Source: Sisyra terminalis (lineage: Eukaryota > Arthropoda > Insecta > Neuroptera > Sisyridae). Taken from it: 64,000 nucleotides of DNA. The stretch is from the NCBI GenBank assembly GCA_958496175.1, contig OY292276.1, forward strand, positions 51,783,080 through 51,847,079, read 5' to 3'. The number at the start of each line of letters is the position of its first letter. The stretch's first letter is position 1. Positions 1,162 through 58,680 of this stretch are shown one piece after another. The notes below the pieces were generated by a model, which ran no database searches, had not been told where the DNA came from, and saw only the letters and a program-made list of their open reading frames with translations. The position numbers were made by a program, and so were the translations under genes.

Positions 1162-1230
1162 GCGATTATTTACGAACGCCTGAGGAAGGCTCAATAACCG
1201 GGCCGAAACGTCGCGGATGTAATAAATAGT
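1162..1230 (+). ncRNA. Hammerhead ribozyme-like motif, family C
   Basis: The conserved core CTGAGGA (1180-1186) is followed by an extra A (1187). A five-pair stem II follows: GGCTC (1188-1192) with GGGCC (1200-1204), one G-U pair, and a seven-base loop. Then come GAAAC (1205-1209) and the triplet GTC (1210-1212), the predicted cleavage site. Helix I pairs CGC (1177-1179) with GCG (1213-1215); after a 2x2 internal loop it resumes as TTACG (1170-1174) with TGTAA and one wobble (1218-1222). Helix III would be the palindrome ACGT, which suits a dimeric hammerhead. Alternatively ACGTC can pair with GATGT (1216-1220), giving a GTA cleavage site. Hammerheads of this kind are known in Penelope-like elements and retrozymes; activity is inferred, not shown. 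Confidence 0.6.
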
Positions 1231-2254
1231 TTTGATTGATTATTATTGATCCTAATCCTCTGAATATTGTTTACCAATAAACCTAATTTTGAAAAACCAT
1301 TAACCCCTACTTTGGATTGGACATCCGAATAAATCATCGAATAGCTGTTGTTCGAATATTATCGAAAAATTTATAGAAGAATTATTTGAGCATGTGTTTA
1401 AAAATTTATTTGATTTTTATGTGACTCATGAGTAGTAGGGGCATGCAAGATTTGAAATAAAAATAATATAAATATTATAAATCAAAACTTAATCTGGTAA
1501 AAGCAAACTATTTGTAGGAACGTAAAGTATAAGAAAAAGTTAATAAGTTTTTGACTGATTTTCAATAAATTTTTCGATTTTATTTCAATGAACTATATCG
1601 AAAAATGCTATAATTTTTTTATGTCTTTCATGACTTTTTGTCATCGGAGTTGTTAATGAGAAGCTACAGATAAATTTCTTTGGAAAATTCAATGAAAATT
1701 GGTTAAAAAATGATCAGGAAAGCATTTTTTTTTCTAAAAATATGTAGATCATAGATACTAGACGTCCAATCTGGAAAATGGATCGAATAAAAAAATATAT
1801 GTCCTTCTCCGTATTTTTCAATAAATCAAATATAAGTTTTAATTGAGTTTTTTCATATTAGGTTTACCGAAAATATCATAAAAATCAATGAAGGATATCG
1901 AAAATTTATCGAAATGTTTTCCGATTGAATCACTAGTTGTAACAAATAATGCTATGAGGAATTAGAAAGAATTTTGATTACTAATATTTTTGCAACGCTT
2001 TACGTTTCCACAAAATATTGTCATTATCATGTTTAATTTATATTCAAAATTTTTATAATATTTTATTAGTAAATTTGATCTACCCCTTCTACGCATTAGT
2101 TAATTAAAAATCAAGTTAATTCATCAACCCATGGTGGAAAGATTTTTTTCTTAATTTCCTGATAACATTCGAAAAATGGGTACCAAGACATTGTATTAAA
2201 AGATATATAGTAGTTCCTAAAAATAGTCAAGACTGTGGGGTAAATATGAGCGGA
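1231..2254. other. AT-rich sequence, no gene seen
   Basis: The first 100 bases probably belong to the repeat that carries the preceding hammerhead motif, but I cannot place its end. The rest shows no supportable feature. Confidence 0.4.
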
Positions 2255-2830
2255 AAGCTATAATTTAAACCTCTGATTTAGTAGGTTTTCCTTGTGTTTT
2301 CTTTTCGGTACCATTTCTGGAAACTATATCCTCAAGAATTTGATTACTGATTCTCGAATGATTTGCATCTAAATTCTTTAAAAGTTCATTTGAAAACGAA
2401 GAACGATCCAAGTCCATTTAAAAATTCTTTAAAGTCTTATTGATCGACCAGCTTCATCTGTACCGAAATCGAATTCCATTAGAGTAATTTACAAGTTTCC
2501 ATAACACTGACACATACCAATTAATTCATCATACCAAAAGACTATAGTAAAAAAAGCTCATAAACAAAATAGTTAATTGTGTAGAGCAAATAAGTATGGG
2601 AAGCTTTAATTTACATTACCGATTTAGTAGTTTATTCGTTCGTGTCCTTCGTGGTATCATTTCCACAAAATATATTTGAAAATTTGGTCACTGATTCTCG
2701 AACGATCCGCATCCACTGCTTAAAAATCCATTAGGAAATTATTATTGATGAACGATCTAAATCCATTGAGTAATTCTTTGATGTTTTTTTGATCAACCAG
2801 CTTCATTTGTACCTGAAACAAATTTAAAAA
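2255..2830. repeat. Diverged tandem duplication, about 340-bp period
   Basis: The block at about 2258-2475 is repeated at about 2600-2815. Both contain a run reading 'gatttagta', then 'ggtaccattt' or its variant, 'actgattctcgaa', and 'accagcttcat' near the end. The copies differ by many substitutions and small indels, so the duplication is old. The first copy keeps a short open frame on the minus strand and the second has lost it. Confidence 0.6.
2265..2417 (-). CDS. Possible 50-codon open frame in duplicated block
   Basis: Read on the minus strand, this frame runs from ATG at 2417 to TAA at 2265 without a stop. It begins MDLDRSSFSNELLKNLD, is hydrophilic and rich in Ser, Asn and Lys, and ends GKPTKSEV. 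It could be a small gene, an exon or part of an unidentified repeat. The duplicated copy near 2600-2790 keeps the start MDLDRSS but is frameshifted and has stops. I do not recognise the sequence. A frame this short can arise by chance, although its composition is less AT-skewed than random frames here. Confidence 0.2.
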   Translation of the reverse strand: MDLDRSSFSNELLKNLDANHSRISNQILEDIVSRNGTEKKTQGKPTKSEV

Positions 2831-4159
2831 GTTTTATTTCAAATAAGTTACCAATTAAGGCTTGTAAGTTAATAACTTAAGTTTATCCTGATTTAAAAAA
2901 AAATGTTCCCGTGTATCATGCAGCTAATCACATGAAAGCCATTGGTACCAAAATATTAACACAATACTTTACTTGGCAATCAAAGACACGAATATCACCT
3001 AATAGTATTCAAGTGTTTATAATTTTCAATCGTAAAAATTTAACAAAAAAGCATATAATAAAGAAATTCGGCTGCATTAAATTAACTTTTAATCATTGAA
3101 CAAAACGGATTACCGAAAATCAATTGCCACTCTAATTGAAGACTGGAACGCCTGAATGATAAAAATTCAATTGTTTCCTCTATTCCTACAGTTCCCTCAA
3201 ATTGATTTATTGCAACGATTTGATTTCCAAAATGTTAACATTCATTAAGTGAGCAAGAATAAAAAAATATATCATAGCCCTAATACAAAGCAAGGCATGG
3301 ATCCATTTGATTAATCCAAATCCGTAATCCACCCTCTTTTTCGTAATGAACATTTGATCCGCGTGAATGAATCCATATATCTATCAGACCGCGTGTTCGA
3401 ATCAATTAAAGTATAATCCGGAACTCGACTCAAACACATACATATACATACAAACCTACCCTTTCCAGGATAGTACTTTCTCAATGCCCGCCACTTCTAT
3501 ATTATCATATACTTATAAAAAGCGACTTGGCGTATTCAATTATCTAACAAATAAATGAAACAATGTTTTAGTCTACGAGCGGTGGGAAATTTTTAGGGGA
3601 TTGAAGTCGAAGTCGAGGGATGAGGTGGTAATATCTTTAACATTTTATATTGTTATTGTATGCAGACGTCGTACGCAATGATACGATGACAATGATAGAC
3701 ATTACACAATGGATATTAGAGGAAACAGTGGAAATCCCGAACTCTTTATGCAGGGGGTGGGTGGTGGGTGTGGGACGTGTGCTGCACAGCCTGTGATACC
3801 GGAAGTGACCTTATGCCATCTGTCAGTCGCGTTTTGTGTGACAACAGGGTAGTCCTCTATCTGAAGTGAACACAAATATTAGAAAGGTCATCTTTCCACT
3901 TATTCTTTTTTTTGCCAACTGACATTCACATATTAAATTTTAATTCAATTACCATAATATTAAAGCTTAAGAATATTTCTATGGAATCGTTTTCTCATTG
4001 AAATATTTCAATTAAACGAATTAAAAAATTTTCATTATTCTTAAAATGTATTAGACCAAAAAAAGAAGTTTGTCGAGCTTTGACCACAAGATTTATTGAT
4101 CCCATAAAAGTCACCCTTTTTAGTACAGTCGTTCAAGCTATTGTTCTCCGCAAAAAGAA
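2831..4159. other. Non-coding stretch with a GC-richer island
   Basis: Most is plain AT-rich sequence. About 3580-3860 is clearly richer in G and C, is not repeated elsewhere in the window, and includes a G-rich run near 3751-3775. Such islands may be older host sequence or regulatory DNA, but I see no specific site. Confidence 0.35.
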
Positions 4160-7100
4160 GCCAATTTTTTTATTAATTGATAAATTAGGTCCTTAAAAAG
4201 ATTTTTATAAAAAATTCCGTTACCAAGAAGCGCCGCACACCACCCAAAATGATTTTCCCCAAAAAAAATGATTTCTTCATTATAACTTTTGAACCGTGCT
4301 AGATAAAATAAAAATAGTTGAGATTAAAATGAAAGCTGAGGATATTTCCAACGAAAAAGCTTCTTTACTAATTTTCCATAAATGCCATAGTTTGGCCGAA
4401 AATTGATGTCGAAAGCGCTAATGATTTTTGCATGATATCAGAATGCGCACGGACTCTCCGCGCACTACATATTGCGAAAATTATGATTTCTTGACAAATG
4501 TGTAAGGTTTTGCTTACAATTTAAATAGATTATTGAAAATGATAACTTTTACAACAATTTCATCCACTTTATAACTCTCTATTATTTTTACAATTAAAAA
4601 ATAATTGATAAAAAATGCAATATTTTATAAATTTCCCGTTTTTCAATAGTTATGCTCGTAGGAAAAATCACGTATTTTAATATCATCATCTAACGTGAAA
4701 AACTAAACTTTAAGCTTTTTATTACGATGTACTCTAAGTGAAAATTGAAATTACAATATTAAACGGAAATGCATCGTGGAAACCCACGAATTTAGTTTAA
4801 TTTTTTCCTTCTGTAAAAACGATTAAAAATCCATAAGGACTTGAAATTTTTCGCAGATAAGATGGATACATTTCAACTATCATTTAACAATATTTCAGCA
4901 AAATATTATCGAAAATCTAAACTCTATGGAATATTCCTGAGAAAATTCGAATAATATCTTAGCTTTGCATTTAAAAAAAAAATCTTAATACTCTTCTTTG
5001 GTAGAAAATTTTTCAATCTGACATACGGACATTCATCTGACATCTGACAACGGAAAATAAAATAAAGCTCTACCGTACACTTTGTCGGTATTCATATATT
5101 CTTCAGCAAGGGAACTTCTTCAGCTAGCCATTTGGAGTTCAAGAGCTCCAGGCAAGACAACACATTAGCTCATAGTTTGCACTAACTGATTGCTAATTTA
5201 AAAAAAAATAAATAAAAAAATATATCCAAAAGCTCATCCAAATAGAAAGAAACGCGTTTGGAAAGTGAGACATTTGCAAAATCTTTTTTATGTTTCCCAA
5301 GTTACGGGTGGCATACGGAAGTTAGTTGTAAACTAAGCACTACTGTATGCAGGGTATACATTTGTGCATACACTTGTATGTTGTAATCGGTAATTTTTTG
5401 GTGTGTATATTTTTGGTACTAAATTTGTCGATTACTCTAGCTCTTCGGGGATGATTGTAGCGTTTACAGAGTGGTTAGATGTAACAAGGGTACTATGGTT
5501 CTGTTCAAGTAGGGTGGCTCTATGAAAACCCTTGCTCCGAGGATAAATTCAGTACTGTAATATAATCTTTGTTGCTCGATTCCGGCTCCAAGTTGATGAA
5601 GAAAAGTGGCATTTGAGTTTTATTAGAATTATTTTCCACGATTATAATAATGCTACGAACTCTGTGTCCCATTTTAAGTTATTCCTCTCATATATCCTGT
5701 GTAGGAGTTGAAGAATGCAGAGTCCTGATAACTAATTAACCCCATATTAACATAAAGCTTGTTTTAATAATTTTCATCGTCATCTGATGTTATATCTTCA
5801 TCAACAGGAGGACTATTTGTGCATTGTTGCTTTTCGCAAATCCCGCCAACTTCACTGCAAATAGCCAGCTTTTTCTGGAATTCTTCGTACAGTTATAAAA
5901 AATAATTTTTAAAATGTCTTATGAAGCTGGTGGTTGTGTCGCCATGACTGAAATTAAAATTTCTCCTTTTTTTTACTCCCAGTTATCTGATGGTAAATCA
6001 TTCGACAACCATTAAGATTTATATCAATGTTGTTCAACTGCATCTGTGGTTAGAGGTAAAGATGTAATATTAACAACCTTAGTCTTTATTTTTTTCAAAA
6101 TATTACTGTATCTCAATTTATAGAGACATCTGTCTATAATCCCTCCGTAATAAATTTTTAGGATGCAAGATATTCCATTTTTGGAAAGGCATTCCTTAGA
6201 TTTCCATTTTTCCATAAATACTTTCATTGCTTTTTCGACCCCAAAATTTGCTTATTTTCAAATAAATTAAAAAATGGAATTCTTTTCCTTGAAAAAACAA
6301 CAGGAAGTCGTATTACAGCCGTTACAGCCGGACATAGGATATAAAATTAAAACAATTTCTATACAAAATACCATATGATCCAGACTTTTGGGAGCAAAAA
6401 TTTTCCTGTCTTCTTTATGCTTTCCCAATTTCAGAAAATATTTTTTCCAATGGACGCCAAAATCATCAAAATACTATCAATATGTCAATATCTTCACACA
6501 CGATCACGGGGATCTCTCTGGTTTATTGAATGCAGTCTTAATGCACTTATCACATGTGTGTCATCGATACCATCAATATGTACTTATTGGAAATTTAAAA
6601 ACTACTACCATATTATTTATTTTTTAAAACGTAAATATAACACATTTGTTAAGTTTAATTTTGAAATTAACGCCTTTTTCTTAATAAATAATGTTATAGC
6701 TAACTTGATGTAATTTAAAAAAAATATACTCGATATAATTTTTGTCAACATTAAATATGTATTGCAATTATAATAAAGTTCACTTCTACCGTGTGTGGTA
6801 TTTATTTAATATATAAAACTACAACATTGTTATTGTTATGATAAAATATAAAATATTAAAAAAACTTTGTACAAATTCAAAATATACATAAATTTTAGTT
6901 TTTAATCCTTTGCACTTGAATCTAGTGCTATTTAGAATATTTTCCCTGAAAAGTTAAAAAAAGAATTCTTTTTTCATTGACGAATTTCTACCCAGAATAT
7001 TCACTTTTAATAACTCCAACTAAAATGTATTAGATATTTATTTAGTATCAAAATGCATTAAGATTAATAATTCAATGTCTAAGAAAGTATATTTCATACT

Positions 7101-7605
7101 CCAATTGACTTTTCTATTGTAAGTTAATATTTGCTGAAATTATTGAATTCTTTATAATTAAGTATTAAGCTCTTCAATATTTGAACCGAAGATTGGCTAA
7201 AAGTCTAATCACTTTTAGAACTTTTCTAGATAAGAAAATATAGCCCTTGAATTAATGAATCATTTGGCTTCTGATTTTTTCTCAAATGCCAATCATTTTC
7301 AATTATATCAACAATAACAAATTATGATTTTGGAAAATATAAATTTTTCTATGTTTTCAATCATCATTTTCACGTTAACTTTGGTACATACAAGAAATTT
7401 TTAAAGGACCTTTTTTGTGAGAAATTTCCTCAGTTTTCGTTTAAAATAACTATTTTATTTGTAACTGGCACGGTTTAAAAATTATAAAGAAGATTTTTTT
7501 TTGAGAAAGTTAATTTTTGGGGAGATGTGGCGCCCCGCGGTGACGGATTTTTAGGTGAAAATCAAGTTTAGAACCTAATTTATCATTTAATAAAAAAAGA
7601 AAAGA
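4160..7605 (-). mobile_element. TIR DNA transposon, copy A (degenerate)
   Basis: The ends are long imperfect inverted repeats. The left end has 'ttgataaattaggt', 'ccgttacc', and further in 'cttcattataacttttgaac' before 'cgtgcta' (about 4178-4312). The right end carries their complements: 'cacggtttaaaaattat' (7469-7485), 'ggtgacggattttt', and 'aacctaatttatca' (to about 7585). A second copy lies at 40720-43385 with the same ends and interior. The single recognisable coding remnant is a nuclease-like frame on the minus strand (6267-6590). Both copies are full of stops and cannot be autonomous. The superfamily is not clear from these ends and the outer edges are approximate. Confidence 0.65.
6267..6590 (-). 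pseudogene. XPG/FEN-like nuclease fragment of TIR transposon
   Basis: Minus-strand frames give, in order, PVIVCEDIDILIV, then FLKLGKHKEDRKIF, PKSLDHM and finally CNGCNTTSC, ending at the TAA 6267-6269. The order acidic 'EDxDxLxxL', 'FLKxGK', 'PKSL' and 'GCxTTS' matches a broad uncharacterised family whose domain resembles the acidic and helix-two-turn-helix parts of XPG/FEN nucleases. The other copy reads SGCDTTSCIF at the same place, so CNGCNTTS here looks like a small insertion. At least one frameshift and several stops break the frame. It lies inside the transposon and is presumably its own gene. Assignment rests on remembered motifs. Confidence 0.5.
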
Positions 7606-14572: not shown

Positions 14573-16309
14573 AAACAATTAAAATTACCATTGGATCAGT
14601 TCTTAGCTTTTAATCAATTCTGATCAATCAATATCTGATGATAGTACACACATTTCAACGCAAGTGGCTATTGGTCCATGAAATTGCGAAATTTTAAGAA
14701 GTTCATTTGTTCTTATTGTAAAAATTTAGAAAATTAACAATAGCACTCCCAAAATCAATTCCAACAATGGATACATTACCCCATACAATGATTTTACTCA
14801 GGAAAGACAATGGCAATTAACATTAAGCGCGAAAGTAGCTTAAAATTAATTAATTTTGCTATGTAGTATCCTTTCAAAAAATTTGAACAATACCAACATT
14901 AGTTTGATTTGATGGTTTGATTTTTATTTTCCAAAAAGTTGCTAAAAAATTGTTAATTTTTTATTTAAATGACATTATCAACCCTTAAATCATGTTAAAA
15001 TTTTATATCAATCGGTTAGGTAATTTCTATAAAAAATTTTTTCGGTTTTTCACTTATTGTTTTTCTTTTCTTACGAAAACTAATTGACTTATAAATCTGA
15101 GATTTCCAAGATTGATTATTTGTACCTCAAGTCTACATATCTATTAAGTATCAGTGAAATATTTTTTCGGAGCCGATTCACTAAGCTTTATGGCATTCTT
15201 ACATTTGCTTTATTATTTTTAGTACACGTTCAGTGTTAATTTTGATCAGTTAACATAAAAATGATGGACTTAGAATCGTAAATCACAGTTTTTCTCAGCA
15301 TTTTCAACAAACTTTCTATTTGGGAAAATATGATAGATTTTTCTCAGATAAGCACAGAATTGGCCAAATATTTGCATCATTTATAGGTACATAGGTAGCA
15401 TACTGCTAATATAGTTTTGTACCAATATTGACGGAAGTGTAATACAGAAATGAGAAAATGAATTTCGTATTTGACAAATATTACGCAAGTACCTACCTAT
15501 GGTATGTGCGTTTATTTACAAAATGTAAAATTTGCAGGTAGGTTGTACCTCTATTTACCCGGATATGAGATGGTAAAATTAATTTCCACAGCTTATGTCA
15601 CTACAATTTTGCCTTGATGTACCTACATCATACTTTTATTTGCGATAGTTGTTTGATCATTACATTGGCGTTTGTCGTTTGAATTTCCAAATATCCGTTT
15701 GGAAGAAGATTCATGAAATAGTCATAATGTACATAATAAGTATATAGCATACATGCACTGAATTGTATTTAGTTGTGGATCATTAAATATAAAGCTCATC
15801 TTGTGCTTGCGTGAAACGCACTTAATGTCCATGACATTCGTTTGAACCCAATGTCGGTCATAAACAAAGATGAAAACTGTGCTTTTGGGTAAACGAGTCG
15901 AAGACATAATGCGTGTGTCCCCCTTTTTATTGGCCGCCTATTTATTTATGTTGCATTTTCGATCCATTTGCGGTATTTAATGTTTCCTGACAATCTGTGG
16001 AAATGATGATAACAATATGGTCGGACGACGAAAATGTCATTGCGGTCGTCATTTGCAGTCGTCGCCACGCTTGGGATGTAATTCGTCGTATTTAAGATTT
16101 TATGGTGGCTAATGATCTAAATTCAAGGGCATTTCAAGTTCGAAACTTTGGTTTTATTAGCCCATGATTGATTATATCCAGTTCGCATGTACTGGCAAAT
16201 AGTTTTGTAAACTTTCTGGCAAAAAAACATTAAAACTTATAAAATCAAAATCACTGATTAAAATTTAGTTTTATGAAAGAAATTCATTTTATGGTAAACA
16301 TCCAAAAAA
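14573..16309. other. Non-coding, with GC-richer part at 15900-16140
   Basis: No gene or repeat end seen. About 15900-16140 has several CG-containing motifs (cgtcgt, gacgacg) unusual for this window, and could be conserved or regulatory host sequence. I see no defined binding site. Confidence 0.35.
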
Positions 16310-16930
16310 AAAAAACTTTTACTTTTACCTTAGTTGTTTTGAATCTTACCAATTCTTATCTTAGCCTTAACATTTCGAAACAATTTTTTCTGCCAAAAAT
16401 TTAAATGACACAAAATATATATATAAGTAAGGGGATGCAATCCCACGAGATAATTCAAATCCTGGTGTTTGCCCCCTGATTATTTTGAATCTCATAAGAT
16501 CCAGGTGTTTGGCGGATTCCTCAAATATCTACTCTATGGTATTTTCAAGTATTTAAGCATTGAAGAAAAGCAAGTCTGCCTTTTATTTGTAAATGTGGTT
16601 TGCCTTATCTACATCCGAAAAAAATTAACTTTTATTTTTACCTAAGTTGTTTTGAATCTTACCAATTCTTATCTTAGCCATAACATTTCGAAACAATTTT
16701 TTCTGCCAAAAATTTAAATGTACACAAAATAGAGATATAAGTTAGGGGATGCAATCCCGTAAGATAATTCAAATCCTGATGTTTGCCCCCTGAATATTTT
16801 GAATCTCGTAAGATCCAGGTGTTTGGCGGATTCCTCAAATATCTACTCTATGGTAGTTTCAAGTACTTAAGCATTGAAGAAAAGCAAGTCTGCCTTTGAT
16901 TTGTAAATGTGGTTTACATTATCTCTACAA
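16310..16930. repeat. Tandem duplication, 313-bp period, two copies
   Basis: The block starting near 16315 recurs from about 16628; 'gaatcttaccaattcttatc' occurs at 16341 and 16654. The copies differ by only a few percent. Within each copy there is a smaller repeat: 'gataattcaaatcctg[g/a]tgtttg' followed 40 bp later by 'aagatccaggtgtttggcgg'. No open frame spans either copy. Confidence 0.85.
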
Positions 16931-21092: not shown

Positions 21093-21950
21093 GCTATTTA
21101 AATTGTTCATTATTAATAACAGCCATGATGAATTTACGCTTAGGTTTGTGGGGCCTGGGCCTAGCATGGTATCATTTTAGGGGCGGCAAAATTTTGCAAT
21201 GTCAAAATATTAAAGGTGAAAAAAAGGACGGATAATTCAAGTTCAAAAAATGACATAAGTTAGTTTTGCTATGAATATTTGGAAAATCATCAATAATCAA
21301 TATTTAATCATTTAATAATATTTAATCATCAATATTTAATTAATTTTTCTATTTACCACATCCCATTTTTCAATTATTAAATCACTGGCAATAAGAGGAC
21401 TGCCATTTTGGGATCATTCCAAACAAATTGAAGATATCCTTAATGATGTTTGTTTGAAAGCGTAAAATGTATTTTTAAATTTAATTCATTTTTATCCGAT
21501 CATATAAAGCCTTTTAGTGGAACCCTAGTAGTGAAAATGGGTCAAACTTATAAACTTTCAAAAATTTTATCTAAAGTATACATTAATTGTCCATTTTTCA
21601 CTTAATCATTGCTTAATTATTAGCAGGAAAGTGAATTAAAGGATGTAAAACTATATACCAATAACTAATCCCGCAATGATTTTGTTTTTTATTACACATA
21701 AATAAATTAAAAAAAAATATAAATTAGGTAAAAACTATTAATTAGCATAATTCTACGAGTAACAATACTAAGCTATTTAGTAGGTTATTTTGATAGTTGA
21801 AAATAATTTTGTAATGTTGCAATCCATATGCTTAGAATTATTATTGTAATTAAACAGTTTTTACCAAATTTATTAAAATTTTTAATGTATTTACAAGTAA
21901 AAAAAAACAAAATTTATTTGCTATATATGTGATGTGCTTTATATACTGTA
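21093..21950. other. AT-rich, nothing recognised
   Basis: No gene or repeat end seen. The last 60 bases resemble the upstream part of the hammerhead repeat at 34430-34460 ('gtgatgt', 'attaagaag'). Confidence 0.4.
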
Positions 21951-22070
21951 AATTAAGAAGCCTGATGAAGATCAAATGAAGGACCGAAACGTTGCGGAAT
22001 TAATTATTAGAATATGGATTTACATCTTTTTATGTCCAATTTCCTACTAACAATTAAAAAATAGTTTACT
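21951..22070 (+). ncRNA. Hammerhead ribozyme-like repeat, family B
   Basis: The core CTGATGA (21962-21968) is followed by an extra A, stem II GATC (21970-21973) with GACC (21982-21985) carrying one A-C mismatch, GAAAC (21986-21990) and GTT (21991-21993). Helix I is GC (21960-21961) with GC (21994-21995), an internal loop, then AATTAA (21951-21956) with TTAATT (22000-22005). The trailing sequence 'atatggatttacatcttt' and 'tcctacta' is shared with 26136, 34458 and 58640, marking one repeat family. The stem II mismatch suggests decay. Confidence 0.55.
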
Positions 22071-25005: not shown

Positions 25006-25324
25006 GTTAATAATTGCAAAACTCAAAGGACATAGGACGATAAGTATAGTGAATTAAACCCAGAAGGATATCTGGTCCATAATTTTAGGATATGTTGGTA
25101 CTTTTAAGATACATTGATTCTGCATGTTTCAGAACTTATGTATTACTGATACTTCAAAAATTGAAAAAAAGCTGAGCAGAAAAAAAAATTCTCCGTAACT
25201 TGTGAATCGATTTAATTGAACTTTACATATGTTTTAGGGGCCGATGGTAGCTTCAAAGAAAAAAATTAAGAGCTATATCGGTTCTTAAAATCCATGAAAA
25301 AGTAAGTTTTTCTTTTAATTTTTT

Positions 25325-25360
25325 TTCGTTACGTATCGAAACTTCATCAGGCTTTTTGGA
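25325..25360 (-). ncRNA. Hammerhead-like motif, degenerate, family A
   Basis: On the minus strand CTGATGA (25350-25344) leads into GTTTCGATACGTAAC, a stem II with one mismatch, then GAAAA instead of GAAAC. The GTN site and the 3' side of helix I are gone, replaced by an A run. It is the inverted partner of the motif at 25371-25414, with 'tttcttgaattcaagaaa' between them as the palindrome centre. Confidence 0.4.
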
Positions 25361-25370
25361 TTTCTTGAAT

Positions 25371-25520
25371 TCAAGAAATCTGATGAAGTTACGATACGTA
25401 ACGAAACGTAGCTAATTTGAATATTAAATAACATTAAATAAAAAAAAATCCGATCTTAAATAACCTGAATTGTCTTCTTTATTTAATAAAAGCTCAGATC
25501 TGATTTTTATCATCAATCAT
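25371..25520 (+). ncRNA. Hammerhead ribozyme-like repeat, family A
   Basis: CTGATGA (25380-25386), extra A, a perfect six-pair stem II GTTACG (25388-25393) with CGTAAC (25397-25402) closed by ATA, GAAAC (25403-25407) and GTA (25408-25410). Helix I is weak here: 'aaat' faces 'gcta', where family A elsewhere has AGC/GCT. The downstream tail 'aacctgaattgtcttctt' and 'ctcagatctgatttttatc' (to about 25520) matches the tails at 33940-34043 and 53610-53700. Confidence 0.5.
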
Positions 25521-26135: not shown

Positions 26136-26205
26136 GCAAAATTAATAATTAGTACATGGATCTACATCTTTTCATGTCCACTATCCTACTAAGAATAAAT
26201 AATAA
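26136..26205 (+). repeat. Family B repeat truncated at the hammerhead cleavage site
   Basis: The copy begins 'gcaaaattaataattag' and continues 'tacatggatctacatctttt' and 'ccactatcctacta', nearly identical to 34503-34560. In that longer copy the same sequence starts directly after the predicted self-cleavage triplet GTC (34500-34502). The sequence before 26136 ('aagcttttttcataa') shows no trace of the ribozyme core. A 5' end at this position is what reverse transcription of a self-cleaved RNA would give, though chance truncation is possible. Confidence 0.55.
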
Positions 26206-31011: not shown

Positions 31012-31081
31012 TCTTTTGTTAATAATTAATAATGTTCTTGGGAACTTGAACTCAAATAATAAGATGTTAAATTTTCAAATC

Positions 31082-31128
31082 ATCTCAACGTTTCGTTGGT
31101 ATTTATTTCCAACTTCATCAGGAGAACT
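31082..31128 (-). ncRNA. Hammerhead ribozyme-like motif, family D
   Basis: On the minus strand CTGATGA (31121-31115), extra A, stem II GTTGG with CCAAC around a nine-base loop AAATAAATA, GAAAC (31094-31090) and GTT. Helix I pairs TCTC with GAGA (four pairs), different bases from families A-C but equally complementary. Confidence 0.6.
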
Positions 31129-31616
31129 AAAGATAATAACAATGCATGATGTTCAAAGCCAAATTACACATAAATTAATTTTCGTGTTCAGTATAAAAGA
31201 TAACTAAGATAACAGTGTTAAAAAGTAGATAAAAAGAATAATCCTTACTTTTTGAGGTTAACATCCTCGTTGTAATATTGGCTCATTACACCGATTCGAA
31301 AAGTAAAACAGATAAAGAAAACAAGATTTAATTAAGTTAAATACAATAATTAAATAAATACAATAATATTTAATACTGGAATGAGAATTATCAGCAATTA
31401 TTGTATTTAACTTAACTTAACCTTGTTTTATAGATCTGTTTTAATTTTTGACCCGGTGTAATGAGCCAGTATTACAACGAGGATGTTAACCTCAAAAACT
31501 AAGGTTCATTCTTTTTATGTATTTTTTAACACTGTTATTTTAGTTTTATACTGAACAGCGAAAATTAATTTATTTGTGTAATTAGGCTTTGAATAACATA
31601 CATTGTTATTATGTTT

Positions 31617-31666
31617 CAGTTCTCCTGAAGAAGTTGGAAATAAATACCAACGAAACGTTGAGATAA
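31617..31666 (+). ncRNA. Hammerhead ribozyme-like motif, family D
   Basis: CTGAAGA (31625-31631), extra A (31632), stem II GTTGG (31633-31637) with CCAAC (31647-31651), GAAAC (31652-31656), then GTT (31657-31659) as the predicted cleavage triplet. Helix I is TCTC (31621-31624) with GAGA (31660-31663). The variable core position 7 is A here and T in the partner arm, which the hammerhead consensus permits. Confidence 0.65.
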
Positions 31667-31735
31667 TTTGAAAATTTTACGTCTTATTATTTGAGTCCAA
31701 GTTCCCAAGAACATTATTGATTATTTATTACACCA

Positions 31736-33939: not shown

Positions 33940-34043
33940 TTTTTTAAATAAGAAGACAATTCAGGTTGTTTAAGAGCGGTTTAAAACCTGAATTGTCTTC
34001 TTAGTTAAAAAAATAAAAGCTGTGATCTGAATTTTATCATCTG
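33940..34043. mobile_element. Family A tail palindrome, insertion seen against empty site
   Basis: The sequence 'aaataagaagacaattcagg' and its complement 'cctgaattgtcttctta' form a palindrome followed by 'gtgatctgaattttatcatc'. The paralogous block at 34602-34830 runs straight through this point ('actgttttttttt' into 'accccaaatacc'), so it shows the unoccupied site. The copy lacks the ribozyme core. Confidence 0.65.
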
Positions 34044-34457
34044 TTTTTTTTTTACTCCAAATACCAGAAATAAATGAGTATTTCCAAGATAACATTTCTT
34101 TAGATTTAAATTTTAGTCCCTTTTTTTAAGTCTTTTAAAAAGGAAAGGATTTTTACTAGTCCGGTCAATTTAGACAAACTAGGATGATTTTTTTAAATAT
34201 TAATTCAAACTAAGATATTTTTAGAAGGATAGTGAATAGTTATAAACTCAGTTTATAAGTGCAATATACAAGCCATGATTTGTATCGTTGCCTTTTTTAA
34301 AAATGTTTAATTACCACGATTTTAACTAATTTTATAAATAATTTTAATGAAAATAAATTTTAATATATAAAAATTTTAATGTAACTAAAAAAATTTGTAA
34401 TGTATGTGTGCGATAAAGAAAAAAATTTCGATGTTATTGTGATGTATGTGTACTTCA

Positions 34458-34570
34458 TATTAAGAAGCCTGATGAAGGTCTAATAAAAGACCGAAACGTG
34501 TCGCAAAATTAATAATTAGTACATGGATCTACATCCTTTCATGTCCACTATCCTACTAAAAAATATAATA
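34458..34570 (+). ncRNA. Hammerhead ribozyme-like repeat, family B
   Basis: CTGATGA (34469-34475), extra A, stem II GGTC (34477-34480) with GACC (34489-34492), loop TAATAAAA, GAAAC (34493-34497), then GTGTC. Relative to other copies there is a 2-base insertion before the cleavage triplet GTC (34500-34502); the resulting ACGTGT can still self-pair with two wobbles. Helix I has GC/GC adjacent to the core, an internal loop, then TTAA with TTAA. The downstream 'gcaaaattaataattag' matches the truncated copy at 26136. Confidence 0.6.
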
Positions 34571-34830
34571 AATAAAAATATAATAACAATTTTGAATATA
34601 TAAGATATTTGATATTTGAATTATGCAATAATTTCACGAAGAACTGCTTATATTAATCGCTGTATCGTTAAGTTATCGAACTAATTTTTTACTGTTTTTT
34701 TTTACCCCAAATACCAGCAATAAATGAGTATTTTCAAGGTAAATTTTTTTTAAGATTTAAATTTTAGTCCTTTTTTTAAAATCTTTTAAAAAGGAAAGGA
34801 TTTTTACTAGTCCGGTCAATTTGGACAAAC

Positions 34831-45256: not shown

Positions 45257-45892
45257 CAGAGATGTGAAAACTATTAGGCTCAAAAGAATATTTTTACTTT
45301 CTTCCAGCAATGTGTCACCCAGACTGTAAAACATCCAACATCAGTTATGATTTGGAGCTGCATGTCAGCAAAGGGTACCCGTAGGATTGTGGAAGGTACT
45401 ATGAGTCAAGACCAATATATACAAGTTTTGGAAACGAGGTTATTGCCTCAAACTAAAGAGTGGTTTCCAGAAGAAAATTGTATCTTTATGCAGGATGGAG
45501 CTCCTTGCCATAAAGCCAAAAAAGTTATGGATTTCCACAAAAATTCAAACATTAATGTGCCTTCTTGGTCAGGAAATAGTCCTGATGCTAATCGCATAGA
45601 AATTTTTTGGGCCATTGTGAAGAAAAAACTAAAAAAATTAAACTATTACAACACGGGTGGATCTGATTACCGAACTCATTAAGAGTTGGCATCATAATAA
45701 AATAAAAATGAAAAAAAAAATAGTACAGAGCATGCCAGAATGGGAAAAATAAATTATAAACAATAAAGGGTACCACACAAATTATTAGATGAGTGAAATT
45801 ATTGTAATTTTTAAATTTATGACACTTAAAAACAAAAATGTGTTTTTTTTTTCTCTTGAGTTGTCTTGAGTCTAATAATTTTCACACCTCTG
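45257..45892 (+). mobile_element. Tc1-like transposon, internally deleted
   Basis: Terminal repeats CAGAGATGTGAAAACTATTA (45257) and, inverted, CAGAGGTGTGAAAATTATTA (ending 45892) are flanked by TA on both sides (45255-45256 and 45893-45894), the Tc1/mariner target. The 636-bp copy keeps the C-terminal half of the transposase right up to the 3' end but has lost the DNA-binding domain and the first catalytic aspartate. It lies directly next to the Jockey-like relic that begins at 45895. Confidence 0.85.
45311..45787 (+). pseudogene. Tc1-type DD34E transposase, C-terminal part
   Basis: The frame runs from about QTVKHPTSVMIWSCMSAKG through IFMQDGAPCHKAK to SPDANRIEIFWAIVKKKL. The aspartate in QDGAPCH and the glutamate in RIEIFW are 34 residues apart, the DD34E spacing of Tc1 transposases. 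After KKLKK a frameshift near 45645 moves the end to another frame, where LITELIKSWHH and, after one stop, NNKGYHTNY complete the usual Tc1 tail (45787). The N-terminal helix-turn-helix domains and the first Asp are deleted. PxxNPIENLW has become PDANRIEIFW. It cannot be active. Confidence 0.85.
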
Positions 45893-48875: not shown

Positions 48876-48883
48876 ATATTGAG

Positions 48884-50506: not shown

Positions 50507-51191
50507 AAAAAACAAAAAGGGAAATTATAGTCAAATTTCAAGTTTGATTTAAAAAAGCTCTTCTTCAACAAAAAATGTAAAGGTGGGTCAGTCCAATTCA
50601 GTCGGTCCAGTACTGGTCACTTGATTATTTTTTTTAATTCTGATTTTTTTTTGCTGTCACCCCAACATGTTGGTAGTTCAAATACATCATTATTTTAATT
50701 TTATTGTCTTTAGTTTTCCGGTGGTGGCCATATTAGTTTAACTAGGCTAACACCAAGATTAGTTGATGACTATGGATACGTACATATATTATTAGCTTTC
50801 AAAAAGAAGTATATGTTTTAAACTTAAAATATGAATATTAGTTAGCCCAGAGTTTATGTTGCTTTGTGTAAAATGCCCTTTTTGCCAAGTATATGTCACA
50901 TATTAAATGGTTAAATACATTATATTCACCTACTGAAGTATGCATTATTTTGGCATTTTGTGCTTGCAATACCTCTGCTCCTAGTCAAATCTCAAATTCC
51001 AAATTTTAGGTGCATAATACTATTATACAGTACTATAATGAGGTGATATTTCAGATTTTTATCTGGTCCCTCACCAGAGATATTGAGCTCAGAAAATTGT
51101 AAATTTTGAAAATTTCCAAATTTTGTTACTTTTTATTTTAAAAAGGCTTAAAGTCTCAGACTTCAAATTTTGTTTTAGAGTACAAAAAGTT
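50507..51191. other. AT-rich, nothing recognised
   Basis: No gene or repeat terminus can be supported. Confidence 0.4.
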
Positions 51192-52222: not shown

Positions 52223-53267
52223 TTTCTGACGTTTATATTCATACTTGTATAGTATTGACACTAGAGTCCTTTGCACTGTGCCCTGATTTGGTGGACGACT
52301 TCGCATTACAGTGTTCGTTTTCCTGTTAGTTATTCTTCGTGCTAATAAAAAAACAATTATTTGTGTTTTCCAAAGAAACTTTGTCACGTAGAATTGGCAG
52401 CTTTAACAGTTCTAACTAATTGATCTGGACTAATTGATTAAAATTCAAATCAGAAATAATTTTGAATTATAGATAAATTCCATTTGAATTTAAAGCACAA
52501 TATGTTTTCAATTTATTTGGAAAAAAAATCTGGAAAACGTTTTTAATAATAACTACCTACTCTTTTATGAAATATGAAGCAAAAGTAATTTTTCAAGTCT
52601 GCTAAACTCTGTCGATGCACATGCACAGATATTGTATATGTATAGAACTTGTAAGACTGTGGAATGGGGGAGAAAATTCTTCAAAAACACGGGAATTTTT
52701 TCTCATAAAAACGATTTTGATAAATACGGTAGAAAATATTTCTTCTAAGGGTTTTAAAAACAATGTGCTACATATGTATCGCTGCGAGAACTTAGGGGGA
52801 TGATGGTCGCTAGAAACTCCATAAAGTGTAATGTGTATCGCGACAAACGTGTAAAACTGAGGCACTTACAGTGGCGTTAGTTCGCGTGAACGCTCATCAA
52901 TTGCTATTTCCAAACGAGAGGGCACACCTTCACGTTGTATTACATGACTCGTCCTTTGCTATATTTTCCCATTTCGCGACAATAACTATATACACTTCAA
53001 CTCTATAGATATGTACCTACATATGTTATGCATCCATATACCACCACTAACTACAACATTATATGCTCTTCTATTTTCAATTTTATATTCCAAGTATTGA
53101 AAACTAATGCCAGTTGTTTTGGCACTCATCGAAAATGTTTTCACACAAATTTCATCAAATTGGACGTATTTGTCGTTATTACATTTACATTTATGTTTCT
53201 TTTTTGGCTTTAGATCTTCATTTTATAACCAATTAAAGGGTATAGCCCGGTTATGGTAAAAGGTTAT
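52223..53267. other. Non-coding, nothing recognised
   Basis: Several overlapping short frames (52602-52865 and others) have no domain. About 52610-52960 is moderately GC-richer. Confidence 0.35.
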
Positions 53268-53410
53268 AATTCGACTAAGGCGGCTGTTAAAATGAGCCCC
53301 TCCTTATACCGCTATTTTCAAATTAATTGAAGAGGATAAATATATTTTTTAAATAAGAAGAAAATTCAGGTTGTTTAAGATCTTTAATTTTTTAATAATT
53401 TATTATTTCA

Positions 53411-53458
53411 AAAAGCAACGTTTCGTTACGTAATCGTAACTTTCTCAGGCTTCTTGTT
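53411..53458 (-). ncRNA. Hammerhead-like motif, family A, core mutated
   Basis: On the minus strand the core is CTGAGAA (53448-53442): position 8 is A instead of G. G8 is the general acid in hammerhead catalysis, so this copy should be inactive or strongly impaired. Stem II (GTTACG/CGTAAC, loop ATTA), GAAAC (53424-53420), GTT and an eight-pair helix I are intact. Confidence 0.6.
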
Positions 53459-53552
53459 TTACAAAATTAAATATTTTTAATTTAATTCAACAAATAAATA
53501 CTTTAATTTAATTTATTTATTGAATTAAATTAAAAATATTTAATTTTGTAAA

Positions 53553-53602
53553 TCAAGAAGCCTGAGGAAGTTACGATTACGTAACGAAACGTTGCTTTTT
53601 GA
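53553..53602 (+). ncRNA. Hammerhead ribozyme-like motif, family A, best preserved
   Basis: All parts are present. Helix I is nine pairs, TCAAGAAGC (53553-53561) with GCTTTTTGA (53594-53602), one G-U. The core is CTGAGGA (53562-53568), then the extra A (53569). Stem II is GTTACG (53570-53575) with CGTAAC (53580-53585) and loop ATTA. GAAAC (53586-53590) is followed by GTT (53591-53593), with cleavage predicted after 53593. Helix III is the self-complementary ACGT, so catalysis would need two motifs pairing as a double hammerhead. The extra A after A9 is also known in the plus-strand hammerhead of chrysanthemum chlorotic mottle viroid. Confidence 0.7.
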
Positions 53603-53870
53603 AATATTAAAATATTAAAAAATTAAAGATCTTAAACAACCTGAGTTTTGTTCTTATTTAAAAAATTTTAAAGCTGAGATCTGATTTTTATCATCTATTA
53701 AGGATAAATATATTAATTAGAGGTATATTAATGCAGTTTAAACACACAAAAGACAAACAAATAGTTTTAGAATAATGATAATCAAGCAAACACTATAGAA
53801 TACAAGAATATAAGTTCCACATTTCCCTTTTCGTTAACTCAGAACTACGCAGCCGCCTTAGTCGAAATAT

Positions 53871-54622
53871 TAAAGATGCACAATTATTAGAGCTAAAAAA
53901 ACATATTATTATGAACTTCAAAGAATTATTGCATAAAAAATAATTTTTAATGACAATTTCTTCATTTTCTAAATTCTTTAATGAAATGTATATATATTTT
54001 GAGTTGAAAAATAATTATCTTCATAGTACTTTACCAAAAAAATGAATATGTGTGCTTTAGCATGAGATATAAGAAAAAAATTGTTTTTATTTTTTTTCAT
54101 AACGTTCCACCAAATCAAAAAATTTTAAAAAATTGCTTAATATAGAGGATTAATAAAGACGTTTTTTGTGAAAATTTGGTGGTGAACACTTTTGAAAAAC
54201 GCACTCAAAAAATTAATTTTAATTTTGTTTCGGTTCTTAAAAACCGACATTCCATCTGAAAATAATAGAAAAAATATTTTGCATGCCTTTTACTCCTAAG
54301 AATGATAAAAAAATTGTAGGTTATTAATTTTAAATTTTATTACTAAAAAAAATTAAATCAAAAAATGTTTTTTTTTTTTTGGAAATACTTGAAAAACGCT
54401 TGCGATAAAAAGCTGAAAATTTGGCTAAACTTTTTTTATTTGGTATCAAAACGATCCCCTGACTTTGGATCGAAAAAGTCGCGGAGGCACTTTTACTACA
54501 CAAACCGGCCTATATCTTTTACGTTTGATCATCATTACACTTTAGCAGAAATCGATAAATTGGTTGTGTCCATACTTTACATAATATTATTTATTTTTAG
54601 TAGCAAAGTGGACTAAAGGATA
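53871..54622. other. AT-rich, nothing recognised
   Basis: No supportable feature; the frame at 54365-54616 has no domain. Confidence 0.4.
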
Positions 54623-55199
54623 TCTAATATATAAAATTCTCGTGTCACGGGGTGCGTAGCTAAACTCCTCCGAAACGGCTCGACCGATTTTCATAAAAAT
54701 TTCTATGTATATTCGGTAGGCATGAGAATCGGACAACATCTATTTTTCATCCCCCTAAATGGTAAGGGTGGTCCACCCTTAAATATTTTTTTTTATTTTT
54801 TGGATAAAATTTTTTGTTTTTATTTTTTTATGATACATCATACAAAAATACATACAACCCTAAATTTTCACCCCTCTATGATCAACCCTTATTTTTTTAT
54901 TAATTAAAAACTTTAATTTTTTTGGCTAGATTTTTATTTTGTCATGACTTAGAATAACACAAAATCATATTACTCTTAATTTTCACCCTTCTACGATCAA
55001 CCCCTATTTTAACGAAATATTAACGAAAAAAGTAACAGTAGTAGTAAAAAAATAATTTTTTTTATTAAAGCTTAAAGTAAATACGTTTTAAAAACCGTGC
55101 ATACATAAAATCGTGTAATTATATATCTCCTCTGCCAGATAAAATTTTAATATTCGGTGTGTTCCTTATAAGAAGTAGGCATGTGAAAATATTTTTTTT

Positions 55200-56025
<826 letters not shown>

Positions 56026-56039
56026 CCATTGTGTAAGCA

Positions 56040-56280
56040 TAGGGAAACCGCCCTCACTCTCATTTTCCCCACCGCACTTCTAAACAACCATAACTACAGC
56101 TGTGAATATTCTGGGTTATGTTGAGCTATGGAGAAGTACAATTGCCACAATTGGTCCCATCACCAGATCCGTTACGCTCATTAGATTATAGGCTAGGAAA
56201 TGATTCTTAAAATTTCTGGACCAAAACTCAAAAATATAACAGTTGATTACAAACAACGTCGTTTGGGGCAACGCATATTG
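56040..56280 (-). repeat. Unclassified repeat, inverted copy of 31890-32080
   Basis: On the minus strand 'ccaaacgacgtt', 'ctgttatatttttgag', 'aagaatcatttcctag' and 'atgagcgtaac' match the plus-strand copy. This copy is longer at its far end, reaching 'acacaatgggcattgt' near 56033. Confidence 0.55.
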
Positions 56281-56569
56281 TGCTGGATAAATTCATGTCC
56301 CCCTTCAAGGTATAATTCCATAATAATTTTTGGATAACATTTAAATTAATTTTTATTTTTCAAATAATTTAAGAAAATCTTAAACAAATGCAGGCAAGAA
56401 CAAATTTATCACTTACTGGAAGCGCTGTTACCACTACTAGACCACTACTAGATCATCAAATCTTACAAATGTATTTTATGAGCAATACAGATACAGAAAT
56501 TGACAGGCGTTGTATTCATAATCCGCAAACATAAACAATAAAACGAATCATTGTCCAAAAATTACGGAG

Positions 56570-57702
56570 GTATCTGAAAATGCAGAAAATTGTAGTCGAT
56601 TAAAGTCACACGACACGTCGTTCGGAAAACTGAGATATGTGGAATCAAAATGTCTTCTGCTTTGTATTTTCAATTCAATTTGTAACTTCGATAAGGTTGC
56701 TCATTAATTTTTTCACCGCAAGTCGGGTGTTATGACCAAAACGTGGTTGATCTATATATTCCACAACATAAGGATTACTGATCCAATTTTTAATTGGATT
56801 ATGAGGCGGTAACCCGGAAAATTTCAGCGAATTTAAAATTCTATCCATAATTGAAAACATCATCTTTATTAGTAACACAATCAACCGAATTGCAGGTCTC
56901 TAATTCGCCAGTTTTCCTATTTTGAATCTGAACTATCTATTTCATTAATATCATTTTCGTTGACAACGTTTTTTGGGGTCAATATAACACGTTCTCTCAA
57001 CCAAACATGATTTTTGTAATTTGTAACCAAGTTTGGGAACACCCTCTCGATGAGTTCGGTCTTTGATTTAGTAAAGTGAAAAAAATGGCAAAGAATGTAA
57101 TGTATGCAGGTAATGTGTCAACAGAAATTTTGCCATTACTAACATCGATCAATTGTTCGGAAAACACTTTTCTAAATTAGTTATTCTGCAATTCGAATTA
57201 CATTTTCGAGTTTAATTTGATTGTTTTTAAATATTTCCATACAGTGGACGACTTCAGACATTAAGGATCGACTGTTGTCGATAAAATAAATGCTTGCTTT
57301 AAATTATCAAATATCTGGTACCATATAAATAAACTTCAGATGGAAGAAAACAAGAAAATTGTATTGCTGAACGATCCTTCTGCTGATGATTTCTCCAAGA
57401 AATTAATAAATGGCCGTGTTCATTGTTTGAATTTTTATTTAAATTAAGTTTATTAAAACATTATTCAGTGGTTTTGTGAAAAAGCTAGCAATTATGTAAA
57501 AAAAATTGAATGAGACGAAATCCCAAAAATTCAAAGGAAATGAAATCAATACACTCAATTCGTTGACAAGAACATGGTTATTACCGATATTCAACATTTG
57601 CTTGGGAAATTTTTGAGCAGATTGATCATTCCACAACGCATGCCTTATGTCTCCAACTGAAATTTCTTTACATTGTGCCACAGATTTTATGATTTTAAGC
57701 AA
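56570..57702 (-). pseudogene. Helitron PIF1-type helicase, C-terminal relic
   Basis: Minus-strand frames give, in N-to-C order, QKFPKQMLNIGNN and LISFPLNF (about 57640-57530); TELIERVFPNLVTNYKNHVW and LRERVILTPKNVVNENDINE (57060-56940, closed by a stop at 56917-56919); ILNSLKFSGLPPHN, then NTRLAVKKLMSNLIEVTN (56840-56680); and EDILIPHIS (about 56625). This series matches the end of Helitron RepHel helicases: 'ELIEKVFPN', 'ERAILxPKN', 'SGLPPHxL', 'NGTRLxVxxLxxNxIEA', 'EDVLIPRI'. The 'LKxGxPIMLLRN' segment is garbled and the Walker motifs and Rep domain are missing. Frameshifts separate the pieces. Confidence 0.8.
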
Positions 57703-58487
57703 GTATTTATTTTATTGGTAGAATTCCATCTTGGAATACTTGGCACTGTTTGGGGGAAATCACCAACAATAAAATCATTGCACTTTCAAAACATATTGAG
57801 TCAATGCGAAGATAGATCTTTCAATAACTATCGTTATATGCCTTTAAGAAAGAGTTACAGACAGTATGAAATTGACAGCATTGACATCAAAGTGTGGGTC
57901 ACGTGAACTGCCAACTACGGAAAATTCCAAGCCTAATTATTTAAAAACTGATTTTATTCATATTTTTCCGTGTATTATTAAGATATGTTAATAGTTAATA
58001 ATAGTTACTCTGCTATTTGGAGCGATGGTGAATTGAACTAATCATTAATCATCAAAATCAGTCCAGTAATTTTTTAGTTAAAAAATGATCTAAATAACCT
58101 GACTTTATTTAGTATATTTAAGATATTTGATTTGACAAATCGTATGTCAATGTAATAGCAACGTACTTCAATGAGGAGAATCAATCTGAGGGCAATGCAT
58201 GCACCAAAATTCATAGCTTCAATAAATTAAATGAATTGTTGACATGCCATTGAATTAACTTATTTTTGTTTTTTATTAATAATTTTTACTCCCATTGTAT
58301 AATATAATATTATTATATAATATTGTTCTAATTAAATATTGAACTTCATAATTGTATTCGTATTAGTTTGTTATTAAAATTATAAATTAAGAGTAGCTAA
58401 AATATTCGTTCATAAAAAACACTACGTTCAATTCCTGTTAGGCACTACGAAGTTTGCCGGGTCAGCTAGTAAATCTATATATTAATT

Positions 58488-58537
58488 ATTAATTCAGTGA
58501 CGTTTCGGTTCTTTATTTGACCTTCATCAGACTTCTA
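58488..58537 (-). ncRNA. Hammerhead ribozyme-like motif, family B
   Basis: On the minus strand AGAAGT leads to CTGATGA (58530-58524), extra A, stem II GGTC/AACC with the last pair lost, GAAAC (58506-58502), GTC and then ACTGAATT. Next to the core, helix I pairs AGT with ACT, where the partner arm pairs AGC with GCT: a C-G pair has become U-A by two changes, which preserves the helix. Confidence 0.6.
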
Positions 58538-58631
58538 AAATTTATATTAATACAAACACATGTTTATAGAACTTTTTCAGGACATTCTTAATAAAGTTCT
58601 ATAAACATGTGTTTGTATTAATATGATTTTT

Positions 58632-58680
58632 TAGAAGCCTGATGAAGGTCAAATAAAGGACCGAAACGTCGCTGAATTAA
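58632..58680 (+). ncRNA. Hammerhead ribozyme-like motif, family B
   Basis: CTGATGA (58639-58645), extra A, stem II GGTC (58647-58650) with GACC (58659-58662) and loop AAATAAAG, GAAAC (58663-58667), GTC (58668-58670) as cleavage triplet. Helix I is AGC (58636-58638) with GCT (58671-58673), then an internal loop. The downstream 'atggatttacattctt' and 'tcctactaaaaaat' is the family B tail. Confidence 0.65.

Follow-up and report, generated by a model that had tools for sequence, protein, structure and literature searches.

Hammerhead motifs in short inverted elements of Sisyra terminalis, probably derived from or mobilised by Penelope-like retroelements

A 64,000-nt stretch of the Sisyra terminalis genome (assembly GCA_958496175.1, contig OY292276.1, positions 51,783,080 to 51,847,079), called here the window, carries repeated motifs that look like real, structure-conserved hammerhead ribozymes. 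An earlier note, made from the letters of this stretch, had described about a dozen of them in four families (A-D). We hold it highly probable that they are minimal type I hammerheads of the kind known from Penelope-like elements (PLEs), and that they lie in the pseudo-long terminal repeats (pLTRs) of short elements that have no open reading frame (ORF) and are derived from PLEs or mobilised by them. The best reading of the window elements is that they are non-autonomous PLE derivatives. The kind itself, minimal PLE hammerheads and inverted pLTRs, is already published. What is added here is the set of families, the ORF-less elements (those of families A, B and E with PLE insertion marks), and a countable asymmetry of tails that constrains PLE insertion.

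Exact matches to CTGANGA-N(6-30)-GAAAC occur nine times in the window, with 0.20 expected, and none of 100 shuffled sequences reached nine. A loose scan gave a tenth motif, 53420-53448(-), with one core change. A covariance model recovered the same ten at E <= 6.3e-8, together with a degraded copy at 25325-25355(-) (E 0.02) and two weaker matches (E 0.26 and 0.65). The "about a dozen" motifs of the earlier note are thus ten and one degraded copy. The model was built from 12 sequences outside the window, one per family, picked with at least four stem II pairs and aligned without the helix III insertions. It includes relatives of A-D from elsewhere in the genome and is not blind to these families. 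In the 12 representatives, helix I is 83.3% paired, and three of its four pairs change on both sides. Genome-wide (376.6 Mb, 11 contigs), the loose pattern was found 16,513 times (8,032 + 8,481) and the reversed pattern 3,008 times (1,578 + 1,430), an excess of about 13,500. By a single gene, Tim10, the host is probably lacewing-like: the best named match is Chrysoperla carnea (89%), followed by one at 80%.

The hammerhead core, CUGANGA and GAAA around helix II with GUH (H is A, C or U) before the cleavage site, is present in the window motifs, apart from the core change in the 53412-53453 copy. The stems are as first described, with small exceptions: stem II is GGUC/GACC in B, GUUACG/CGUAAC in A, GGCUC/GGGCC in C and GUUGG/CCAAC in D, and only three of four pairs form at 21957-21998 and 58494-58535(-). 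Helix I is likewise AGC/GCU in A and B, CGC/GCG in C and UCUC/GAGA in D. The run of GAAAC and GUH holds in general and fails at 34464-34507, which reads GAAACGUGUC instead of GAAACGUH and has a helix I with only two pairs. The added A ahead of stem II was found in the window motifs, and in all motifs from the two scans a single additional base, A or U, separates CUGANGA from the best stem II. An extra base at this position is known in hammerheads from viroid work. Beyond the earlier description, GAAAC runs straight into GUH, so that the helix III hairpin is missing, and several motifs form outward-facing inverted pairs within palindromes; the inverted pairs of the window are head-to-head. Sampling gave further families, namely E (GUCAG/CUGAC), F (GUAGA/UCUGC, helix I UUGU/GCAA), G (GUCGG/CCGAC), J and K, as well as family I, with stem II GACAG/CUGUC and U as the added base. 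Comparison of the families with blastn gave only short matches of 15-70 nt, mostly across the core.

The earlier note had claimed that helices I and II covary and had proposed a pattern search followed by a covariation test. We ran this check on a sample, the window and 50 fetched loci, leaving out one locus that overlaps C1:1387431-1388711. All 81 matches to CTGANGA-N(12-24)-GAAAC were taken whether or not they paired, and the 70 with GUH or GNGUH next were kept, which gave 45 distinct strings. In these strings, 85.0% of the helix I and II cells are paired, compared with 59.9% (sd 1.6) after shuffling. The covariation score is 0.723 versus 0.258, and 101 cells versus 36.5 are changed on both sides. 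None of 500 shuffles reached any of these three values. Further pair types number 26 versus 21.6 (reached by 4 of 500 shuffles), and the count of pairs with a change on both sides is not exceptional (7 of 8 versus 6.6; reached by 284 of 500). Controls with slid partners were 23.5-44.0% paired. These values come from a sample rather than from all copies and from a counting tool rather than R-scape, and kinship among the copies inflates the shuffle comparisons.

Taken separately, stem II has 171 of 180 cells paired (mean of 5,000 shuffles 116.7, maximum 138), and the inner three pairs of helix I have 116 of 135 (mean 81.5, maximum 97 in 5,000). Helix I is the fairer test, because most loci were chosen with stem II visible and helix I hidden. 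As a whole it is 75.0% paired, with the outermost pair in only 19 of 45 strings. For stem II we added a check free of choice on all 100 genome matches listed: 132 of 188 cells are paired (shuffle mean 89.6, maximum 111 in 5,000), there are 47 distinct combinations of stem halves, and all four pairs form in 57 of the 100 places. The claimed covariation thus goes beyond the shuffled and slid controls. The stems differ between families yet stay paired, which supports the further claim of selection on RNA structure rather than shared sequence alone. Selection is visible between families, whereas single copies look like decaying ones.

We also considered in what form such ribozymes could act. In families A, B1, C, D, E, F and G, and in PLE-3 (one of the coding families described below), GAAAC is directly followed by GUH, giving a loop-free ACGU that cannot close a hairpin and can pair with a second copy. 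The self-complementary stretch is ACGCGU in family I and AUACGUAU in PLE-2, and ACGUGU of B2 pairs with itself only through two G-U pairs. Lack of a helix III hairpin and a self-complementary stem/loop III mark the minimal PLE hammerhead, and both were found. According to the available excerpts of published work, PLE hammerheads are minimal type I ribozymes without helix III that may cleave as dimers, for which a palindromic helix III and a tandem arrangement are needed (PMC7761336, PMC6466107, PMC6155905). In the window the pairs are inverted and not in tandem. In folding of monomers, the A copy at 53556 and D form no helices other than I and II. B, C and B2 retain helix II and part of helix I, but core bases also pair, and the A copy at 25374 misfolds. 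When two copies of A, B, C or D are co-folded, they form strand-swapped dimers, which are more favourable than two monomers by 2.0-3.4 kcal/mol. Most likely, the ribozyme is active as a pair of copies that join via the self-complementary stretch and cut after GUH. It would most likely work within RNA made from source copies that stand in tandem or as single arms, or else by two RNA molecules coming together. At one genomic locus (L025:1390-1640), two ribozymes of the family I type stand in direct tandem with a spacing of 219, an arrangement that would allow a double hammerhead in a single RNA.

The insertion marks connect these elements with PLEs. We examined 19 inverted pairs from the window and the loci for direct repeats. 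A repeat of at least 9 bp lies near the ends of 13 of the 19 and is clean in 12, while 11.4% of 342 mismatched left/right flanks reach 9 bp. Repeats of at least 12 bp occur in 6 of 19 pairs versus 1.2% of mismatched flanks. The target-site duplication (TSD) is 9-14 bp long. In the 12 clean pairs, one copy of the repeat sits at the end of an arm (-3 to +1) and its partner lies 29-41 nt outside; those 29-41 nt are a family-specific tail. Using tail strings from the same families as probes on 18 elements (nine of A and three each of B, E and I), we found the tail on exactly one arm in 16 of them (8 left, 8 right), on both arms in none and on neither in two, both of which are degraded window elements. 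In the window, only the family A element at 53344 gave a duplication, of 14 bp, and its tail, AAAGCTGAGATCTGA, is on the right side only. The nearest relative of an arm is its sister arm in 13 of 18 cases in A and in 5 of 6 in E. The inner spacers between head-to-head arms range from 58 to 1979 nt, and the junctions lie at varying distances from the ribozyme. Inverted pLTRs, a short TSD and a one-arm tail were seen together in most of the A, B, E and I copies examined.

Family I encodes a reverse transcriptase (RT) and carries the same marks as the ORF-less A, B and E. At C1:1387431-1388711, a 427-residue RT frame with YVDD stands between two family I ribozymes that face outward. We spotted YIGQTGRSF in this frame by eye; Pfam gives RVT_1 and no GIY-YIG. 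The nearest solved chain is a telomerase RT (E 1.1e-5), and insect proteins are among the best 120 of its 463 relatives. A second copy on contig C5 has two stops and the same layout. In the right arm of family I, a C-terminal piece ends about 20 nt before the ribozyme. Five further divergent loci have a scanned ribozyme in two cases and none in three. A search with the firefly PLE protein P0071, which has RT and GIY-YIG, gave two more families with long open frames, PLE-2 (839 residues) and PLE-3 (822 residues), matched over residues 14-543 and 14-540 of 565. Each has its own ribozyme in the 3' flank of the one copy inspected: ACCA-CUGAUGA-A-GAUUGC...GCAAUC-GAAAUACGUAUC-UGG, 20 nt after the stop, in PLE-2 (locus L057), and CGCC-CUGAAGA-U-GCGACC...GGUUGC-GAAACGUU-GGCG, 157 nt after the stop, in PLE-3 (locus L059). 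In the three families I, PLE-2 and PLE-3, the ribozyme thus stands 20-160 nt 3' of the ORF. In the 900 nt around the 5' end of the PLE-2 copy (L058), no ribozyme was seen. Inverted pairs of PLE-2 frames with identical match scores occur at C1:32191135-32196482, C2:38621057-38626520 and elsewhere; they are probably recent head-to-head insertions with long ORFs. A Pfam search of the whole genome for GIY-YIG, with all 107 of 107 candidates scored, gave one match, without the motif. Its neighbouring frame is reminiscent of the host nuclease SLX1.

On this evidence, the following course of events can be suggested. In the transcript, helices I and II would form about the CUGANGA/GAAA core; the sequence and covariation for this are observed. 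Two ribozymes would join through ACGU, ACGCGU or AUACGUAU and cut after GUH, by analogy with published PLE ribozymes. A PLE reverse transcriptase/endonuclease acting in trans may start cDNA synthesis at a nick in the target, from a site about 30-40 nt past the end of the pLTR, so as to include the tail, and copying may proceed to the RNA 5' end or to a break. The cDNA would then fold back and copy itself. The product would be two head-to-head arms with the tail on one of them and a 9-14-bp target duplication. We observed this structure in elements of A, B, E and I, and infer which enzyme acts and in what order the steps follow. Mobilisation of A-D in trans is suggested by the insertion marks that A, B and E have in common with family I. 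The RNAs that are copied appear to be uncut at the cleavage site, because both arms span that site. A family A remnant at 33942, in which only the 3' ends stand head-to-head, is what a truncated fold-back product would leave. Tentatively, we go further and propose that A-D and their kin are protein-less parasites of PLEs, a PLE counterpart of short interspersed nuclear elements and miniature inverted-repeat transposable elements (MITEs). They would have their own independently evolved stems and a minimal pLTR, and would make up a large share of the hammerheads of the genome. The one-sided tail would then reflect an ordered two-step insertion, with the first strand made from the tail site, the second arm by fold-back of the cDNA, and the ribozyme copied uncut.

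The strongest competitor concerns this last step. The two head-to-head copies could come from two separate first-strand syntheses, one on each nicked strand, rather than from a single folded-back cDNA. We consider this unlikely, though it keeps real weight. According to PMC11167929, the anole PLE protein can cut both strands in vitro and extend each of them. In addition, the sister arm is the nearest arm for only 3 of 6 arms in B and 2 of 6 in I, leaving 3 and 4 arms, respectively, for which it is not. However, two starts should produce some two-tailed copies, and the tail is one-sided in 16 of the 16 elements that have one; sister arms are also usually closest to each other in A and E. One-sided tails and the nearness of sister arms lean to single-cDNA fold-back over two independent strand copies.

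Could the elements be of another class? Metazoan non-LTR retrozymes, small tandem repeats that spread as circular RNA, also have type I hammerheads and no ORF, and PLEs are named as their likely helpers in the available part of PMC7229834. One tandem pair of family I was seen, with the spacing given above. However, the retrozymes described there are direct tandem repeats of about 150-300 bp, most invertebrate ones with a stable helix III, while the window pairs are inverted and helix III is loop-free in most families. We regard this origin as very improbable. Class II fold-back elements or MITEs with a chance hammerhead-like hairpin in their terminal inverted repeats would account for the inverted repeats, the TSDs and the lack of an ORF, and they are a shade less probable still. 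Against them stand the asymmetric termini (a tail on one end only in 16 of 18), the variable duplication length, the variable spacers and junction-ribozyme distances, the covariation of helices I and II, and the same layout in RT-encoding family I (the genome was not searched for a transposase). Least probable of all is that the motifs are alike merely by descent and have no RNA function: inside subfamilies, conservation of the ribozyme does not significantly exceed that of its flanks (313 of 347 versus 806 of 931 positions, nine comparisons, p = 0.087), but the stems differ between families and keep pairing while the flanks hardly align.

Several results weigh against the PLE-derived origin that we prefer, among them the conservation test just given and the sister arms in B and I that are not nearest to each other. 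Rfam gave no hammerhead at the gathering score in the window and none at E <= 10 in window positions 20000-60000; the weak Rfam matches in the stretches searched were mostly to microRNA hairpin models. For comparison, the Rfam hammerhead model gave 11.2 bits, against a cut-off of 34, on the family I ribozyme, in the correct register, and no match at E <= 10 on the family A ribozyme. Co-folding of A, B, C and D produced no double hammerhead joined by ACGU, which is unpaired in A and D, and the transcript of an entire palindrome forms a single hairpin (-197.3 kcal/mol) in which the ribozyme would be hidden. A pLTR beside an ORF with RT and GIY-YIG was seen for families I, PLE-2 and PLE-3 and not for A-D of the window, whose elements showed no such ORF. 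No PLE ORF attached to an A-D ribozyme was found in genome searches that scored part of the candidates: 98 of 3,770 with P0001, 77 of 2,114 with P0071, and 150 of 3,440 with RVT_1, the last of which does not separate PLEs from other retroelements. No credible coding remnant of a PLE was found in the reference elements of families A to F (best tblastn E 0.022). Unlike A, B and E, neither C, which is a single arm, nor D yielded insertion marks. The D element at 31021 has inverted arms only, with a best end match of 6 bp and no 9-bp TSD, and the window elements at 25324 and 58469 have neither tail nor TSD. Finally, most loci were chosen by eye among the first 100 genome matches listed. The choice of loci, the co-folding result and the missing C and D marks slightly weaken the PLE reading and raise that of two separate starts.

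Table 1. Elements, hammerhead motifs and target-site duplications in the window
Feature	Position	Strand	Evidence and remarks
Family C hammerhead	1175..1217	+	GGCUC/GGGCC, helix I CGC/GCG; covariance model 48.5 bits, E 1.4e-11; blastn to C reference
pLTR remnant around the family C hammerhead, single arm	about 1134-1268		
Family B hammerhead, single arm, one stem II mismatch	21957..21998	+	Covariance model E 6.3e-8
pLTR remnant around the 21957 family B hammerhead	about 21900-22063		blastn
Short family A palindrome	25324..25406		Inverted repeat; degraded 25325-25355(-) head-to-head with 25375-25415(+)
Family A hammerhead	25375-25415	+	Covariance model E 2.7e-9
Family B 3' pLTR fragment without ribozyme	26136..26204	+	blastn, 98.5% over 67 nt to B2
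Family D palindromic element, arms about 330 nt	31021..31725		Inverted repeats of 150, 111 and 42 nt; arms 88.8% identical
Family D hammerhead, left arm	31082..31126	-	Covariance model E 1.3e-12
Family D hammerhead, right arm	31620..31664	+	Covariance model E 6e-13
Family A remnant with 3' pLTR ends joined head-to-head at a 5'-truncated junction, lacking the ribozyme part	33942..34045		blastn to A1/A2, both strands
Family B2 hammerhead, GAAACGUGUC	34464..34507	+	Covariance model E 1e-8
B2 element	about 34218-34562		Inverted ends 34218-34234 / 34546-34562
Target-site duplication, left copy, AGGATAAATATATT	53333..53346	+	Direct repeat
Target-site duplication, right copy	53701..53714	+	Direct repeat, 14 bp
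Family A palindromic element	53344..53700		Arms 53344-53499 / 53511-53666, 96% complementary, then right-side tail
Family A hammerhead, left arm	53412..53453	-	Covariance model E 4.9e-10; one core change
Family A hammerhead, right arm	53557..53598	+	Covariance model E 6.4e-12; helix I up to 9 pairs
Family B 3' pLTR fragment	54554..54620	-	blastn
Family B palindromic element, left arm shortened	58469..58700		Inverted repeats of 72 and 46 nt; blastn
Family B hammerhead, left arm	58494..58535	-	Covariance model E 1.2e-8
Family B hammerhead, right arm	58634..58675	+	Covariance model E 4.3e-11

Other repeats were observed in passing. The B2 element is flanked by a direct repeat of 99 nt, 88% identical (34081-34179 / 34732-34830), perhaps another repeat family. 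The window also contains a fragment of a Tc1/mariner-type transposase at 45278-45679 (+) (Pfam DDE_3, E 7.6e-12) and two tandem copies of a 314-bp unit with 93% matches at 16298-16924. At the start of contig C1, from 20256 to about 295000, the string CTGAAGAAATGAAGAAAC recurs 13 times, every 15-26 kb. Some of the 3-kb pieces next to it match one another at 99.9% with no gaps, and may belong to a large tandem array close to a contig end. Rfam at the gathering score gave no family in the two such pieces searched.

The published work cited here for comparison was available in excerpts, and likenesses and differences are given within that limit. Small dimer-cleaving hammerhead variants are described in Penelope-like retrotransposons (Lunse, Weinberg and Breaker 2017; Cervera and de la Pena 2014; via PMC7761336, PMC6466107, PMC6155905 and PMC11167929). 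Minimal hammerheads are dispersed by the thousands in animal genomes, mostly non-coding and some in PLE pLTRs, and their role is called a mystery (PMC7761336). PLE insertion marks on dispersed ORF-less copies would explain this spread. Our literature search, which covered few subscription papers, listed no report of lacewing hammerheads and no non-autonomous palindromic hammerhead-bearing PLEs among its matches. The ribozymes found here are like the published PLE hammerheads in the minimal type I core, the missing or self-complementary helix III, the link to PLE pLTRs and the thousands of dispersed copies. Unlike them, A-D were not found beside a PLE ORF, and their head-to-head copies have no second ribozyme on the same strand, so that a dimer could form only between molecules or in tandem sources. 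The constant A or U ahead of stem II is a feature of the hammerheads here. The Aedes and Nematostella hammerheads share the self-complementary helix III sequence; their stem/loop III is palindromic, a dimer was proposed, and no monomer activity was detected (PMC3088659). Metazoan retrozymes are similarly ORF-less with type I hammerheads, whereas they are direct tandems with mostly a real helix III and the elements here are inverted pairs without one (PMC7229834).

The Anolis Poseidon PLE (PAc) also has a ribozyme with stems I and II, at the junction of pLTR and ORF. It overlaps the start of the ORF, while the ribozymes of I, PLE-2 and PLE-3 stand after the stop, in the 3' pLTR (PMC11167929). 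In vitro, unprocessed RNA was the dominant insertion substrate of this PLE, and ribozyme mutants inserted normally (PMC11167929). The families described here make it testable whether the ribozyme acts before or after reverse transcription. The closest structural likeness is to Penelope of Adineta vaga (Arkhipova et al. 2013, PMC3846280), with inverted, mostly head-to-head pLTRs, a palindromic junction, an 8-10-bp TSD and a 31-bp tail optionally present on one inverted pLTR. In that species, integration in trans was inferred from pLTR-flanked host genes, and the authors favoured self-priming, on an antisense template (PMC3846280). Our elements share the inverted head-to-head pLTRs, the short TSD and the one-arm tail. 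Unlike Adineta Penelope, they are ORF-less mini-elements with several ribozyme families, and the tail occurs on exactly one arm in 16 of 18 and never on both. The many paired-stem families and this countable asymmetry make it testable how PLEs form head-to-head copies.

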